A stretch of DNA of 48,937 bases from Acidimicrobiaceae bacterium (GTDB taxonomy: Bacteria; Actinomycetota; Acidimicrobiia; Acidimicrobiales; RAAP-2). Location: assembly GCA_027315445.1 (NCBI GenBank), contig DAHUYA010000137.1, positions 1 to 48,937 on the forward strand, given 5' to 3'. This document shows positions 2,114 through 33,276 of the stretch, piece by piece (the stretch's first letter is position 1; every line of letters starts with the position of its first letter). A program made the translations under genes and the position numbers. Below the pieces are notes generated by a model that saw only the letters and a list, made by a program, of their open reading frames with translations, did not search any database and had not been told where the DNA came from.

Positions 2114-3274
2114 GTGGGGGTGACCGCCGAGGAGGTCCAACAGCTGGTCGACGGCCTTCTCGCCGAAGGTCGCGAGCTCGACGCGACGGCGTTCCTCGGG
2201 CTGCAGTTCGACCGGGGTCTCGCCCGGGTCGACCTCCCGCCGGGCCACGGCGGGCTCGACGCCGACCCGGCCCGACAGGAGGTGGTCGACAGCGCACTGC
2301 AGGCAGCCGGCCGGCGCTACTCGTGGACCAGGAACCCGATGGGCATCGGCATGTGCGGCCCCACCATCGCCGTCTGGGGGACCGAGGAGCAGAAGGTGCG
2401 CTACCTCCGGCCGATCTACACGGCCGAGGAGCTCTGGTGCCAGCTGTTCAGCGAGCCGGGTGCAGGCTCCGATGTGGCCGGCCTGGCCACCAGGGCGGTC
2501 CGCGACGGCGACCACTGGGTGGTGAACGGCCAGAAGGTGTGGACCTCGCTCGCCCACCTCTCGTCCTGGGGGTTGCTGCTGGCCCGGACCGACCCGGACG
2601 CTCCCAAGCACCGGGGGTTGACGGCGTTCATCGTGGACATGCGCTCCCCCGGCGTCGAAGTGCGGCCACTGCGCCAGATGTCGGGCGCCAGCGCGTTCAA
2701 CGAGGTCTACTTCACCGACGCGCACGTCCCCGACGCAGCACGCGTCGGCCCGGTCGGCGAGGGCTGGCGGGTCGCCCACACGACCCTGATGAACGAGCGG
2801 GTGTCGATCGGCGGGGCGGTCGCGCCCCGGGGCTCGGGCCCCATCGGGGCTGCGGTCGCCGCTTGGCGGGCGAGCACGTCGCGCCGGCCTGCGCACCGGG
2901 AGTCCCTCCTCCGTCTGTGGGTCGAGGCGGAGGTGCTCCGGCTCGGGAACCTTCGGGCGCAGGCGCTGCGCGAGAAGGGCACACCCGGACCGGAGGGTTC
3001 GGTGCTGAAACTCGGCTCGGCGCTCCTGATGCAGCGGATCACGGACCTCACGGTCGACCTGCAAGGCCCGGCGGGGATGCTGGTCGCCGGGTACGACGGC
3101 GTCGGCGAATCCAGCGACGACCCCGGCCTGGCGCTGCTCGGCGCCCAGAGCTCCACCATCGCCGGCGGCACGTCGGAGATCATGCGCACCAGCCTCGGTG
3201 AGCGGGTCCTCGGGCTGCCCCGGGAACCGGGGCTCGACCCGGCCACCCCCTGGAGCCAGATCCCGCGCAGCTGA
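2114..3274 (+). CDS. acyl-CoA dehydrogenase
   Basis: FAD-dependent alpha,beta-dehydrogenase of acyl-CoA thioesters (FadE type), 386 aa, usual for the family. The central FAD-binding stretch is clear (CQLFSEPGAGSD, then VVNGQKVWTS), as are the middle-domain segment GEGWRVAHTTLMNERV and the C-terminal IAGGTSEIMR motif. The GTG at 2114 follows GGAAGG at about 9 nt spacing; a second in-frame GTG six bases on is possible. It stands alone between the ECF genes and a small conserved gene. The substrate cannot be read from sequence; actinobacteria use many such paralogues for fatty acids, steroids and branched acids. Confidence 0.92.
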   Translation: MGVTAEEVQQLVDGLLAEGRELDATAFLGLQFDRGLARVDLPPGHGGLDADPARQEVVDSALQAAGRRYSWTRNPMGIGMCGPTIAVWGTEEQKVRYLRPIYTAEELWCQLFSEPGAGSDVAGLATRAVRDGDHWVVNGQKVWTSLAHLSSWGLLLARTDPDAPKHRGLTAFIVDMRSPGVEVRPLRQMSGASAFNEVYFTDAHVPDAARVGPVGEGWRVAHTTLMNERVSIGGAVAPRGSGPIGAAVAAWRASTSRRPAHRESLLRLWVEAEVLRLGNLRAQALREKGTPGPEGSVLKLGSALLMQRITDLTVDLQGPAGMLVAGYDGVGESSDDPGLALLGAQSSTIAGGTSEIMRTSLGERVLGLPREPGLDPATPWSQIPRS

Positions 3275-5439: not shown

Positions 5440-5631
5440 GGCCGTTCCTCCTTCTTGCCCTTCGTGCCCTTCGTGCGACCGGGACGCCCGGTGCGTCCCG
5501 CCGTTCCGGTGCCCCGCAATCCCCCGGCGTACCGCGACGGCAACACCTTCGGCCGCCGTCGACGGCTCACCCGCCGGGCGCGCGAACGGAGTCGCAGTTC
5601 CAGTGTGCGGCCGGGGCAGCGCGACGGGGAA

Positions 5632-8016: not shown

Positions 8017-8646
8017 ATGGTCGGCGATCGCTCGGTGCGGGCAGGGACGGGCGTCGATCGCCCGACCGGTCAGGGCCCCCTCCCCGAGCCCCCGTTCCCC
8101 CCCGGGCCCTCGCCCCTCCCCCCGGAACCCGGGCCGCCCCCCCCGCCGGAGCCCCCCGAGCCTCCGTGGCCGCCGGAACCGCATCCTTGGCCGCCCGAGC
8201 CGCCGTCCCCGCCGGAGCCGCCCGAGCTCGAGCCGTCGGGGCACCGTCTCGACCGCAGGCCCGACCACTGGGTCATCGAGGCCTGGGGCCCGGACCGTCC
8301 TGCCTGCGTCACCGAGGCGCTGCAGGCGCTGATCGAGGGCTTCGCCCACGTCGACGACCCGCCGGCCACGGCCGCCCTTCCGATCGCCTCGGCGGACGGC
8401 GGGAACGAGGACGCACTGGCCAGCCTGATCGAGGAGGTCGTCCAACGGCTCGAGGTCTTCTCGGTCGTGCCGGTGCGCTTCCACCTGGCCGAGACCGCGG
8501 ACGGAGGTTTGGCGGGCGACATGGAGGTCGTGCCGGCCAGCCGGGCGACGCTGTTCGGGCACCCACCCGCCGCCCTCCCGCCTCGCGAGCTGTCCGTCCG
8601 GAAATCGGGGCAGCGTTGGTGGTGCCACCTCCGCATCGACGCCTGA
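8017..8646 (+). CDS. archease-like protein with Pro-Glu-rich N-terminal extension
   Basis: 209 aa. Residues about 20-75 are a low-complexity PPEP-type stretch. The rest resembles archease: WVIEAWGPDRPACVTEALQAL, then EDALASLIEEVVQRLEVFS, VPVRFHL and a final beta strand WWCHLRIDA. Archease activates the RNA ligase RtcB in organisms that have both, but no rtcB is visible here. It probably forms an operon with the adenosine-specific kinase (11 bp gap). The ATG at 8017 has no obvious ribosome site, so an internal start after the Pro-rich region cannot be excluded; its third-position GC and frame continuity support the longer form. Confidence 0.6.
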   Translation: MVGDRSVRAGTGVDRPTGQGPLPEPPFPPGPSPLPPEPGPPPPPEPPEPPWPPEPHPWPPEPPSPPEPPELEPSGHRLDRRPDHWVIEAWGPDRPACVTEALQALIEGFAHVDDPPATAALPIASADGGNEDALASLIEEVVQRLEVFSVVPVRFHLAETADGGLAGDMEVVPASRATLFGHPPAALPPRELSVRKSGQRWWCHLRIDA

Positions 8647-27226: not shown

Positions 27227-28120
27227 TCAACGCTGCAGGTCCAGCACGGCCCGGGCGAGCTCCTCGAGCTCCGCCCGGGGGTCGGCCGGCGGCTCCACCG
27301 GCCGGACCACGAACTTGGAGAAGCCGACCGCCACGAACTCCTCGAGGGTGCGGCGGAGGGCCGGGAGGCCGACCGGCACCACCTGGGCGAGCTCTTCGAC
27401 CGGTCGGCGGACCACCGATGCCATGGCCCGCTGCCGGGACGGCTCGAGCGGCGTCCGTGCATAGCCGATGCTCACCCCGAAGTGCTCCGGGCTGATGCTG
27501 CGGCCGGCGGCGGCCGCGGCCGCGTCCACCACCGCCTTCCCGGCCACCGCCTCGGCCGGCGTGCAACCCGACGGCAGCCACCCGTCGGCCAGACGCCCGC
27601 AGCGCTCGAGGGCGGCCGGCACCCGTCCCCCGAGCCAGACGTCGAAGGGTTCCTGGGCCGGCCGCGACGAGATGGCGACCCCCTCGAACCGCCCCGCCGG
27701 GCCGTCGTGGTCCACCACCTCTCCGGACCAGAGGGCCCGCAGGAGCGGGAGCATCTCCTCGATCCGGGACCCACGCTCGGCCACCGGCACGCCGATCGCC
27801 TCGCGCTCGGGCGGGCGGGTCAGCCCCGGCACGAAGGTGACCAGCAGCCGCCCACCGGTCGCCACGTCGAGATCGGCCAGCTGCTTGGCCAGCCGGACCG
27901 GGTGGCGGCCGGCGAGGAGCATGGTCGTGCCGAGCTTGAGCCGGGGCACCCGCGCGCCCACCCAGGCCAGGCCGACCAGCGGGTCGAGCGTGGCGGCGGT
28001 CAGCACCTCGGGGAGCCAGAGCGAGTCGAAGCCCAGCGCCTCGAGCTGCTCGGCCAGCGCCGCCAGGGCTGCCGGATCGCCCGACGGCAGGCCGGCGCCC
28101 ACCCCGACGCGGACCTTCAC
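27227..28120 (-). CDS. LLM-class flavin (probably F420)-dependent oxidoreductase
   Basis: 297-aa luciferase-like TIM-barrel enzyme. Seen: VGVGAGLPSGDPAALAALAEQLEALGFDSLWLPE, LGTTMLLAGRHPVRLAKQ, and WLGGRVPAALERCGRLADGWLPSG, the typical Tyr/Gly-rich cofactor region. Actinobacterial members commonly use F420. The GTG at 28120 is chosen because the barrel's first strand follows at once; it lies 16 bp after the threonine aldolase stop. Confidence 0.88.
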   Translation of the reverse strand: MKVRVGVGAGLPSGDPAALAALAEQLEALGFDSLWLPEVLTAATLDPLVGLAWVGARVPRLKLGTTMLLAGRHPVRLAKQLADLDVATGGRLLVTFVPGLTRPPEREAIGVPVAERGSRIEEMLPLLRALWSGEVVDHDGPAGRFEGVAISSRPAQEPFDVWLGGRVPAALERCGRLADGWLPSGCTPAEAVAGKAVVDAAAAAAGRSISPEHFGVSIGYARTPLEPSRQRAMASVVRRPVEELAQVVPVGLPALRRTLEEFVAVGFSKFVVRPVEPPADPRAELEELARAVLDLQR

Positions 28121-28136
28121 GGGGCCACCGGGGGGC

Positions 28137-29162
<1,026 letters not shown>

Positions 29163-30979: not shown

Positions 30980-31000
30980 GGCGGTCGTACCGCCTAGGAT
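30980..31000 (+). promoter_or_regulatory. inverted repeat GGCGGT-CGT-ACCGCC abutting -10 box TAGGAT
   Basis: A perfect 6-bp inverted repeat with 3-bp spacer ends exactly where TAGGAT (30995-31000) begins, and TAGGAT ends 6 nt before the GTG at 31007. The repeat occupies the -35/-10 spacer, a classic repressor position. Confidence 0.5.
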
Positions 31001-31006
31001 GACGGG

Positions 31007-32095
31007 GTGCCCGTGGTGCGACCCACTGGCCTGATGGGTCCGCTCGGGCTCCTCATGCCGATCGCCCCGCCCGGTAACTCCCCTGCTCATATGGGTAGTA
31101 CCTCCTATCTTACCCCGAGTACTACATCCGGTAGTACCATCGAGCCCGTCACCGGCCTGGCGGCTTCGGTGGCGAGCCGCTTCGCCGAGGCGGAGGCGGC
31201 CGGGGCGGCCGGGCTCTGGGTGGTCGACCACCTGTTCTGGTGCATCCCGATGCTCGACTGCCTGAGCACGCTGGCCGTGGCCGCCACCGCCACCCGCCGG
31301 GCCCTCCTCGGCACCTGCGTCCTGCAGCTGCCGATGCGCCGGCCGTCGGCCGTGGCCAAGCAGGTGGCCACCCTCCAGCTGCTCAGCGGCGGCCGGTTCG
31401 TGCTCGGGGTGGGCGCGGGGAGCCACCCCGGGGAGTACTCGGCGGCCGGCGTCGAGTACGGAACGCGGGGCAGGGCGCTCGACGGGGCGCTCGACCAGCT
31501 CCGGCGGTGCTGGGCCGGCACCGCAGGCGACGGGGACCGCTACCGGCAGGAGCCGGTGCCCGAGCCGGTGCCGGTGTGGGTGGGCGGGTCGAGCCCGGCG
31601 GCCCTCGAGCGGGCCGCCCTCCGGGGTGACGGCTGGGTGCCGTTGTTCCTCGGGCCGGACGACTACCGGACAGGACTGGCCCGGCTCCGGCAGCTCGCGA
31701 CGCGCGCCGGGCGTGACGCCGACCGGCTGGCGGCGTCGGTGGTGGTGCCGGTGTCGCTCGGAGCCCGCACCGATGTCGCCGCCGAGCGGGGCACCCGCTG
31801 GCTCGGCGCCCTCTACGGGCTGCCGCCGCATGCCTTCGCTCGCCACCTCGTGGCCGGCGATGCCCGCCGGTGCGCCGAGCACCTCCGCCGCTACCGGGAC
31901 GCCGGCGCCGAGCACCTGGTGGTCATGGTGGCCGACCAGCGCGCGGTCGAGCAGTTCGCCGAGGTGGCGGCCGCCCTGACCGACACCTTCTCGGACGCCG
32001 GCCTCTCGGACGCCGGCCTCTCGGACGATCGCCTCTCCCCCCGACGCCATTCCCCCGACGCCCCCCGGCCCGAACCCCTGGAGGTACCTGCGTGA
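31007..32095 (+). CDS. LLM-class flavin/F420-dependent oxidoreductase with low-GC insertion near N-terminus
   Basis: 362-aa luciferase-like enzyme. Strand 1 is GLLMPIAP; the next helix region resumes at SVASRFAEAEAAGAAGLWVVDHLF. Between them is a Ser/Thr-rich stretch (HMGSTSYLTPSTTSGSTI) encoded by low-GC codons unlike the rest of the gene. Downstream family features are QLLSGGRFVLGVGAG and VWVGGSSPAALERAALRGDGW. The C-terminus has a triplicated 15-bp repeat giving SDAGL-like pentapeptides. GTG start from the leaderless promoter. The stop overlaps the thiolase start (GTGA). First gene of a four-gene operon. Confidence 0.86.
   Translation: MPVVRPTGLMGPLGLLMPIAPPGNSPAHMGSTSYLTPSTTSGSTIEPVTGLAASVASRFAEAEAAGAAGLWVVDHLFWCIPMLDCLSTLAVAATATRRALLGTCVLQLPMRRPSAVAKQVATLQLLSGGRFVLGVGAGSHPGEYSAAGVEYGTRGRALDGALDQLRRCWAGTAGDGDRYRQEPVPEPVPVWVGGSSPAALERAALRGDGWVPLFLGPDDYRTGLARLRQLATRAGRDADRLAASVVVPVSLGARTDVAAERGTRWLGALYGLPPHAFARHLVAGDARRCAEHLRRYRDAGAEHLVVMVADQRAVEQFAEVAAALTDTFSDAGLSDAGLSDDRLSPRRHSPDAPRPEPLEVPA
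31073..31140 (+). other. low-GC, repeat-containing insert within LLM gene
   Basis: About 68 bp with markedly lower GC and codons such as AGT, TAT, CTT and ACA. It holds GGTAGTACC twice (direct repeat) and a GTAGTAC / GTACTAC inverted pair. The reading frame is kept. Confidence 0.75.
31989..32033. repeat. 15-bp in-frame repeat, three copies
   Basis: CTCGGACGCCGGCCT twice, then a variant CTCGGACGATCGCCT, within the LLM gene. It encodes repeated SDAGL-type pentapeptides close to the C-terminus. Confidence 0.85.
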
Positions 32096-33276
32096 GCACA
32101 GAACCGGTCGCCATCCTCGGGACGGGGATGACCGACATGAGCCGCCGTGACCTCTCACCCGATGCCATGGCCTTCCAGGCGGTCCACGAGGCGATCGCCG
32201 ACGCCGGCCTGCACCCCGGCGAGCTCGGGCTGGTGCTGGCGAGCAACGCCATGGGAGGCAGGCTCAGCGACCAGGGCTGCGTCCGGGCCCAGGCCTGGCT
32301 GCGCAAGGCGGGGCTGGGCGACGTGCCCATGGTCAATGTGGACAACTCCTGCGCCGGCGGCACGGCCGCTCTCCACCTCGGGGTGCTGGCCGCCCGGACC
32401 AGCGACCGACCGGTACTGGTGGTCGGCACCGAGAAGATGTGGACCGGGGACCGGGCGGCCACCCTGGCGGGGATCGAGGACGGCCTTCCCGCCGACTACC
32501 GGGCCGACATGCACGCCCGGTTCCGGGCGCAGGAGAACCCGGCCGGGAGCATCCTGATGGGCCTCAACGACTTCTGGGCCCGCCAGTACATGACCGAGCG
32601 GGGTGGCACGCTCGAGCAGGTCGCCGCCACGGTGGTCAAGGCCAGGGCCAACGCCGCCCGGAACCCTCTCGCCCAGGTGCAGCAGGAGATCACCGCCGAG
32701 GAGGTGCTGGCCGCCCCGCAGGTGGCCGGGGTGCTGACCCGCCTCATGTGCTCCTCGTTCACCGACGGGTCGGCCGCCGTGGTGCTGACCGGTGGGCCGG
32801 CCCCCCGGGGCGCCCCCCGTATCATCGGCTCGATGGCACGGTCGGGCAACGGCGAGATGGACTACCACGACCGGCTCGATGTGACCGCCCGGGCCGCCTG
32901 GGAGGACTTCGGCTTCGGGCCCGGGGACGTGGACCTAGTCGAGCTGCACGACGCCACCGCCCCCGAGGAGCTCTACGCCCTCGAGTCGCTCGGGTTCTTC
33001 GAGCGCGGCACGGCTGGCCCGGCCACCTTGGCCGGGGACACCGCCATCGGCGGCCGGGGACCCACCGTCAACCCGAGCGGCGGCCTCGTGGGCCGAGGCC
33101 ACCCCCTGGGGGCCACCGGCATCGCCCAGGTGGTCGAGCTGGCCTGCCAGCTGCGGGGCCGGGCCGGCGAACGCCAGGTGCCGGCCGGCCGCCTCGGGGT
33201 GGCGGTCAACACCGGTGGGGTCATCGAGGGGGACGCCGGGTACGTCGGCATCCACGCCGTGGCGGCCGGAGTCTGA
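32092..33276 (+). CDS. thiolase-superfamily protein (SCP2/SCPx-like)
   Basis: 394 aa. The nucleophilic Cys is in VDNSCAGGTAALHLG (about residue 88) and the catalytic His in GGLVGRGHPLGATG. The C-terminal second Cys of biosynthetic thiolases is absent: the segment reads AVNTGGVIEGDAG. The HDATAPEELYALESLGF segment is SCPx-like. Such proteins act in side-chain degradation or C-C bond cleavage rather than simple acetoacetyl-CoA chemistry. The GTG at 32092 has GGAGGT at 6 nt and overlaps the LLM stop (GTGA). Confidence 0.87.
   Translation: MSTEPVAILGTGMTDMSRRDLSPDAMAFQAVHEAIADAGLHPGELGLVLASNAMGGRLSDQGCVRAQAWLRKAGLGDVPMVNVDNSCAGGTAALHLGVLAARTSDRPVLVVGTEKMWTGDRAATLAGIEDGLPADYRADMHARFRAQENPAGSILMGLNDFWARQYMTERGGTLEQVAATVVKARANAARNPLAQVQQEITAEEVLAAPQVAGVLTRLMCSSFTDGSAAVVLTGGPAPRGAPRIIGSMARSGNGEMDYHDRLDVTARAAWEDFGFGPGDVDLVELHDATAPEELYALESLGFFERGTAGPATLAGDTAIGGRGPTVNPSGGLVGRGHPLGATGIAQVVELACQLRGRAGERQVPAGRLGVAVNTGGVIEGDAGYVGIHAVAAGV

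Follow-up and report, generated by a model that had tools for sequence, protein, structure and literature searches.

A probable intragenic operator array for a VapBC-derived RHH regulator in the first loop of an LLM oxidoreductase gene of Acidimicrobiales

What is a short, low-GC, repeat-bearing segment doing inside the coding region of an otherwise GC-rich oxidoreductase gene? We took up this question for an LLM-class gene in a 48,937-bp stretch of Acidimicrobiaceae DNA, hereafter the window. A sequence-only reading had placed a low-GC, Ser/Thr-rich loop segment with repeats at 31073-31140 and had offered a small mobile insert, a rare-codon pause or an operator within the coding region as explanations. 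The segment is real and these limits were essentially right, with the repeated units running from 31094 to 31138. GC content dips to 58% at 31050-31149, against 67-82% in the adjacent intervals, and the loop has a GC of 0.58 and a GC3 of 0.57, compared with 0.78 and 0.94 for the remainder of the gene. The 9-mer GGTAGTACC occurs twice, in copies 36 bp apart, and GTACTAC (31119-31125) lies between both copies and forms an inverted pair with each. The features of this locus are as follows.

30983..30991, unstranded: possible weak upstream unit, GGTCGTACC, unit score 6.6, just upstream of the -10 box
30995..31009, + strand: predicted leaderless promoter and start, TAGGAT-GACGGG-GTG, with a TANNNT -10 and in-frame ATG/GTG spacing
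31007..32095, + strand: LLM-class (F420-type) oxidoreductase with the array in its first loop, PF00296 E=2.6e-47
31094..31102, unstranded: operator unit 1, GGTAGTACC, +88 from the predicted leaderless start, unit score 14.4
31106..31114, unstranded: degenerate unit 2, TATCTTACC, +100, in the 12-bp register
31118..31126, unstranded: operator unit 3, AGTACTACA, +112, unit score 8.4
31130..31138, unstranded: operator unit 4, GGTAGTACC, +124
32092..33276, + strand: thiolase or lipid-transfer-type gene, overlapping the LLM stop codon
33267..34205, + strand: KASIII (FabH-like), the next operon gene, approximate start, PF08541 E=9.1e-38

The LLM gene is the first of an LLM-thiolase-KASIII operon. Its product carries a Bac_luciferase domain (PF00296, 162 bits) and scores 159.8 bits against TIGR03619, slightly under the cut-off of 166.9. 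The array in its first loop consists of 9-bp palindromes of the GGTANTACC type at 12-bp spacing. Up to one mismatch, GGTAGTACC has nine matches in the window against 2.8 expected; genome-wide, the 9-mer is not enriched (14 matches, against 29 for a reversed control). What stands above chance is the set of palindromic units in the 12-bp register, not the 9-mer by itself.

Our search for orthologues covered 60 relatives. Within the same family, LLM orthologues share about 47-58% identity, and across about 13 related genera (Acidimicrobiales MAGs), with LLM proteins about 50% identical, the array is kept in AT-rich codons. In most orthologues the loop that joins strand 1 (GLILPT) to helix 1 is AT-rich and carries GGTNNTACY units in the exact 12-bp register, as in genome G001 (GGTAGTACT-ACT-GGTACTACC-GAA-GGTGGTACC-AGA-GGTAGTACC). 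The TANNNT -10 and in-frame ATG/GTG spacing likewise recur in most orthologues, and in several genera the units lie at +88, +100, +112 and +124, counted from a predicted leaderless start of the form TANNNT, about 6 nt, ATG/GTG. The +88 register of unit 1 is shared with loci L011, L012, L015, L022 and L030; unit 2, weak in this genome, is strong in L011 and L015. Genus g4 has additional units, forming strong arrays, upstream of the LLM gene, as seen in G003, and the weak upstream unit GGTCGTACC is found at its position in this genome only. The element also outlasts the gene that holds it. In G015 (L053) the LLM body is lost and four units persist in the interval that separates a short remnant from the thiolase gene, and in G011 (L172), which has no LLM ORF, two units persist before the thiolase gene.

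A second, non-coding home of the same unit points to a candidate binding protein. This genome encodes an RHH protein of 88 aa (G000:C92:14419-14679) whose start codon is preceded by GGTACTACTTCGGGTGTTACC-CTGAGCAG-GTG. Readable close RHH orthologues have a pair of units with 12-bp spacing (11 bp in G001), ending about 8 bp before the start codon, with the consensus RGTRNTACYNNNGGTGYTACC derived from 20 unique sites. With its TACC the second unit begins TACCAT or TACCCT, which could plausibly serve a leaderless promoter as its -10. Tandem units thus overlap the predicted -10, which at the level of sequence is the layout of a VapBC autoregulatory operator. Membership of the RHH family is weak but consistent, with PF01402 matched at E 0.006-0.019, under the gathering score. 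A profile search of PDB sequences gave CopG (best, E 0.03) and MazE6 as the closest proteins, and a fold search with the RHH model placed RHH structures at the top (E 0.07-0.2), including CopG and other RHH antitoxins. Every strong-array genome of the main set has a close RHH; between genera its identity is 76-97%, compared with only about 50% for their LLM proteins. Among 14 further genomes it was found in 13, and the remaining one, G066, is 82% complete. Named carriers are MAGs labelled Acidimicrobiaceae, Acidimicrobiales, Actinomycetes or Actinobacteria. Genera g3, g20 and g21 have a divergent copy (70-77%), a weaker LLM array, no parB site (see below) and RHH promoter sites that are not recognisable. 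No close RHH homologue was detected in g5, g7, g10, g11, g14, g15 and g18.

The matrix that we used to connect the two places was symmetrised and built solely from the 20 unique non-coding RHH-promoter sites. Its top match in the 49-kb window is the LLM loop itself (units 3 and 4, 31118-31138, score 22.8), the best match outside the LLM array scores 9.2, and the maxima of 60 Markov copies of the window had a mean of 8.7 and a highest value of 20.2. When the loop peptide was recoded synonymously, 22.8 was reached in 0.03% of trials if codons followed the usage of the gene and in 0.25% if they were uniform. Loop scores ranged from 7.6 to 28.5 in all 17 RHH-bearing genomes and were at most -7.6 in all five RHH-lacking ones (Fisher 3.8e-5, a descriptive value, the genomes being related); loops added later scored 19.7 in G012 and 26.8/16.2 in G003. 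Synonymous randomisation gave P of 0 to 0.02 with RHH and 0.35-0.78 without, so that synonymous recoding alone cannot account for the site in RHH-bearing genomes and does account for it in those lacking RHH. Part of the co-occurrence of RHH and array is phylogenetic, as the RHH-bearing genera may represent one or two clades. As a comparison of MAG sequences, these results demonstrate selection at the DNA level on an element shared with the RHH promoter, and it is from this shared sequence that we infer the link between the RHH protein and the sites. We read the LLM segment as a probable intragenic operator array for a domesticated VapBC-derived RHH regulator, with a probability of roughly 0.8. 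Of the explanations offered from the sequence alone, an operator within the coding region is accordingly the one that gained strong support, from the identity with the RHH promoter, the matrix rank and the recoding tests.

The description of this regulator as domesticated comes from its neighbour. In the loci read, the RHH ORF is followed by a PIN-like ORF, which is the VapBC gene order. The partner is left unclassified above threshold by NCBIfam and Pfam, and its assignment to the PIN fold rests on an AlphaFold model (mean pLDDT 91.7) and a Foldseek search, which matched it to VapC11 and VapC15 of M. tuberculosis with E below 1e-3. The catalytic acidic residues of a VapBC PIN domain are missing in this clade: the first catalytic Asp, present as YDTGAL in the relatives G040 and G041 from other families, is Gly in all examined copies (YG-x-GAL), and VVD-VAV and TSDP have likewise had their aspartates replaced. 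We infer that the partner lacks nuclease activity. Its role may be to stabilise the RHH protein or to promote its oligomerisation, which is what VapC does for VapB in VapBC systems. Because the PIN-fold partner has lost its catalytic aspartates, the pair is most likely a domesticated, probably non-toxic VapBC module retained as a regulator. A similar RHH promoter site occurs in G040, where the PIN partner is apparently less degenerate and keeps YDTGAL, which suggests that the operator is older than the loss of the catalytic residues.

A tandem-site search across the family returned four recurrent places, namely the LLM locus, the ParB linker, the C-terminal tail of YidC and the RHH promoter, all well above a reversed-pattern control in the same genera. 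The two additional places are as follows.

ParB linker site: L044, L045, L049, L062, L063, L065, L067, L120-L136, L139, L196, L220
yidC 3'-end site, just before jag: L046, L061, L068, L121-L129, L135, L136

In every RHH-bearing genome examined, a tandem GGTANTACC site lies in the ParB linker, between the HTH and C-terminal domains; the site is absent from L137 and L138. Matrix scores in parB were 20.7 to 28.8 in all 19 genomes with a close RHH and at most 2.1 in the other 19 (15 without RHH and four with the divergent copy), and the site is also present in G036, which was read separately. The yidC site is found in genera g4, g8 (in part) and g9, with scores of at least 19 in g4 and part of g8, and in g9 it is carried by G008. 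These sites bracket parS, as in G022 (L122), where the parB site at 3193 and the yidC site at 8122 lie on either side of parS-like sites at 5539 and 5638. The parB and yidC sites are far from known promoters, and control of transcription from them is less obvious. In G094 (L127), the ParB linker has expanded GTTS-type repeats in GC-rich codons adjoining the operator, as if a 12-mer had been copied in tandem and had later drifted.

The array differs in sequence from the TGTTTCACGTGAAACA-like parS consensus and does not qualify as parS. A role as a parS replacement was considered, canonical parS seeming to be missing in some array genomes, and was dropped because diverged parS-like sites (2-3 mismatches) occur separately between jag and parB. 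Array matches in places that did not recur (L040, L041, L042, L047, L048, L054, L055, L059, L066, L076, L086, L170, L174 and L175) were set aside as possible chance matches, with L042, L059, L066, L076, L086, L170, L174 and L175 inspected singly. In G070, a tandem site GGTAATACTTATGGTACTACC with an extra GGTGCTACC close by was seen in apparently non-coding DNA (L089:1501-1521).

Several other explanations would put the conserved property elsewhere than in an RHH operator. If the loop peptide, with its G-S/T-T-x repeats, were under selection and the DNA pattern secondary to it, the shared frame of the units in LLM, ParB and YidC (GGT-NNT-ACY, Gly-x-Thr) would follow naturally. However, the units use rare T-ending codons and synonymous recoding seldom gives the score, non-coding copies stand before RHH genes and upstream of LLM in g4, the frame is different at the LLM-less locus of G015, and RHH-lacking relatives have a loop without the motif, which together make selection on the peptide very improbable. 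The last point also bears on an expectation set beforehand, that relatives encoding the same loop in normal codons would speak against a special role for its DNA. Such loops were indeed seen, solely where the RHH gene is absent, and RHH-bearing relatives keep the AT-rich codons; the distribution supports the operator reading. A signal at the RNA level (a hairpin, a rare-codon pause or the site of an RNA-binding protein) would fit the location of every intragenic site in a transcribed region, and GGTACTACC-N3-GGTAGTACC could pair as a 9-bp hairpin. Against this, the sites, read by eye, have unit centres without hairpin co-variation (C/G, G/C, G/G, C/C, C/A, T/C), and the RHH-promoter sites, overlapping the predicted -10, would be upstream of the transcript. 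A rare-codon pause in particular is not needed, given that the site is also non-coding before the RHH gene and upstream of LLM in g4 and is kept in two loci without an LLM ORF, and we consider an RNA signal of any kind highly unlikely.

An in-frame, low-GC, repeat-containing segment is also what a small mobile or palindromic insert in the coding region would look like, but a search of the genome with the loop DNA found it to be single-copy (in an assembly 81% complete), and orthologues of many genera have the element at the identical position and in the same register. An insert is thus scarcely credible. The rival with most to recommend it, unlikely as we judge it, is another factor that binds all of the sites and also controls the RHH gene; the RHH protein is itself a putative binder, which leaves room for such a factor. 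However, the pattern searches returned no more than four recurrent kinds of loci, and in type II systems an operator that overlaps the promoter of an antitoxin gene is normally bound by that antitoxin, which weakens the case for a separate protein.

If the LLM segment is an operator array for the RHH regulator, an RHH dimer would bind each 9-bp palindrome, with cooperative packing at 12-bp steps. The RHH protein probably represses its own gene, because the two sites cover the -10 box of the predicted leaderless promoter. At the LLM operon, cooperative dimers would probably occupy up to four sites (about +88 to +132) in an array that sits in frame within what may be a permissive loop of the protein. 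The bound array would then probably block the elongating polymerase or work together with upstream sites, and the outcome would be the expression level of the LLM-thiolase-KASIII set. A position in the gene body is unusual for a simple repressor. Given its place about 90-130 bp inside the transcribed region, the array most likely acts as a roadblock to the polymerase or as a downstream repression complex, and we give the roadblock step by itself about even odds. More tentatively, and in our view rather doubtfully, a toxin-antitoxin module with a dead toxin may have become a core regulator whose sites stop sliding ParB clamps or mark the origin region. The sites in parB and, in some genera, at the yidC end lie about 2 kb from parS, on either side of it, and, if this reading were true, the size of the partition complex would be tied to a lipid-type operon.

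RHH-PIN modules and their autoregulation are well known. As in VapBC11 and VapBC15 of M. tuberculosis and FitAB of Neisseria, an RHH gene is followed here by a PIN-fold gene whose model matches VapC structures, and palindromic sites in tandem cover the promoter of the module itself. Unlike in those systems, the PIN protein lacks the catalytic aspartates, the RHH protein is strongly conserved across genera, and operators lie also within three other genes. Small tandem palindromic units are likewise typical of CopG and Arc-type RHH repressors, with CopG among the top fold matches, although the GGTANTACC unit, the 12-bp period, the number of units (two to four) and the placement inside coding regions set the present sites apart. 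The antitoxin MqsA has a site in the csgD promoter, 78 bp upstream of where csgD transcription begins (PMC4894380), and is alike in that an antitoxin operator recurs at unrelated genes; the sites here differ in being intragenic and in frame, in keeping fixed positions from genus to genus, and in that the toxin partner is apparently dead. Long-range silencing by KorA-KorB (PMC11790492), in which a small DNA-bound regulator acts on a sliding clamp of the ParB family close to the site where the clamp is loaded, is similar as an analogy only. RK2 is a plasmid and KorA a different protein, and a contact between RHH and ParB would be proposed here purely by that analogy. Our searches of open-access full texts found no description of operators inside parB, yidC or LLM coding sequence, or of a conserved dead-PIN module of the RHH-PIN kind.

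Because sites of the LLM type recur inside two unrelated genes by the partition locus, the data suggest that a former toxin-antitoxin module was converted to a housekeeping regulator. This would be a case in which the toxin is dead and the antitoxin is better conserved than its apparent target genes, and in which operators within protein-coding sequence override codon usage and outlast the host gene. The connection with parB and with the surroundings of parS poses a new question, namely how chromosome partition is controlled in this actinobacterial order, which is represented in the present data mostly by MAGs.

Three further observations concern the LLM gene and its surroundings. A perfect 14-bp palindrome, GGTGGTCGACCACC, is present in the LLM coding region (31219-31232), and a short tandem repeat encoding SDAGL units occurs near the LLM C-terminus (31990-32030). 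About 3 kb upstream, a second LLM-class oxidoreductase of another subfamily is encoded on the minus strand (27227-28252), with TIGR03854 as its best match, below the cut-off.
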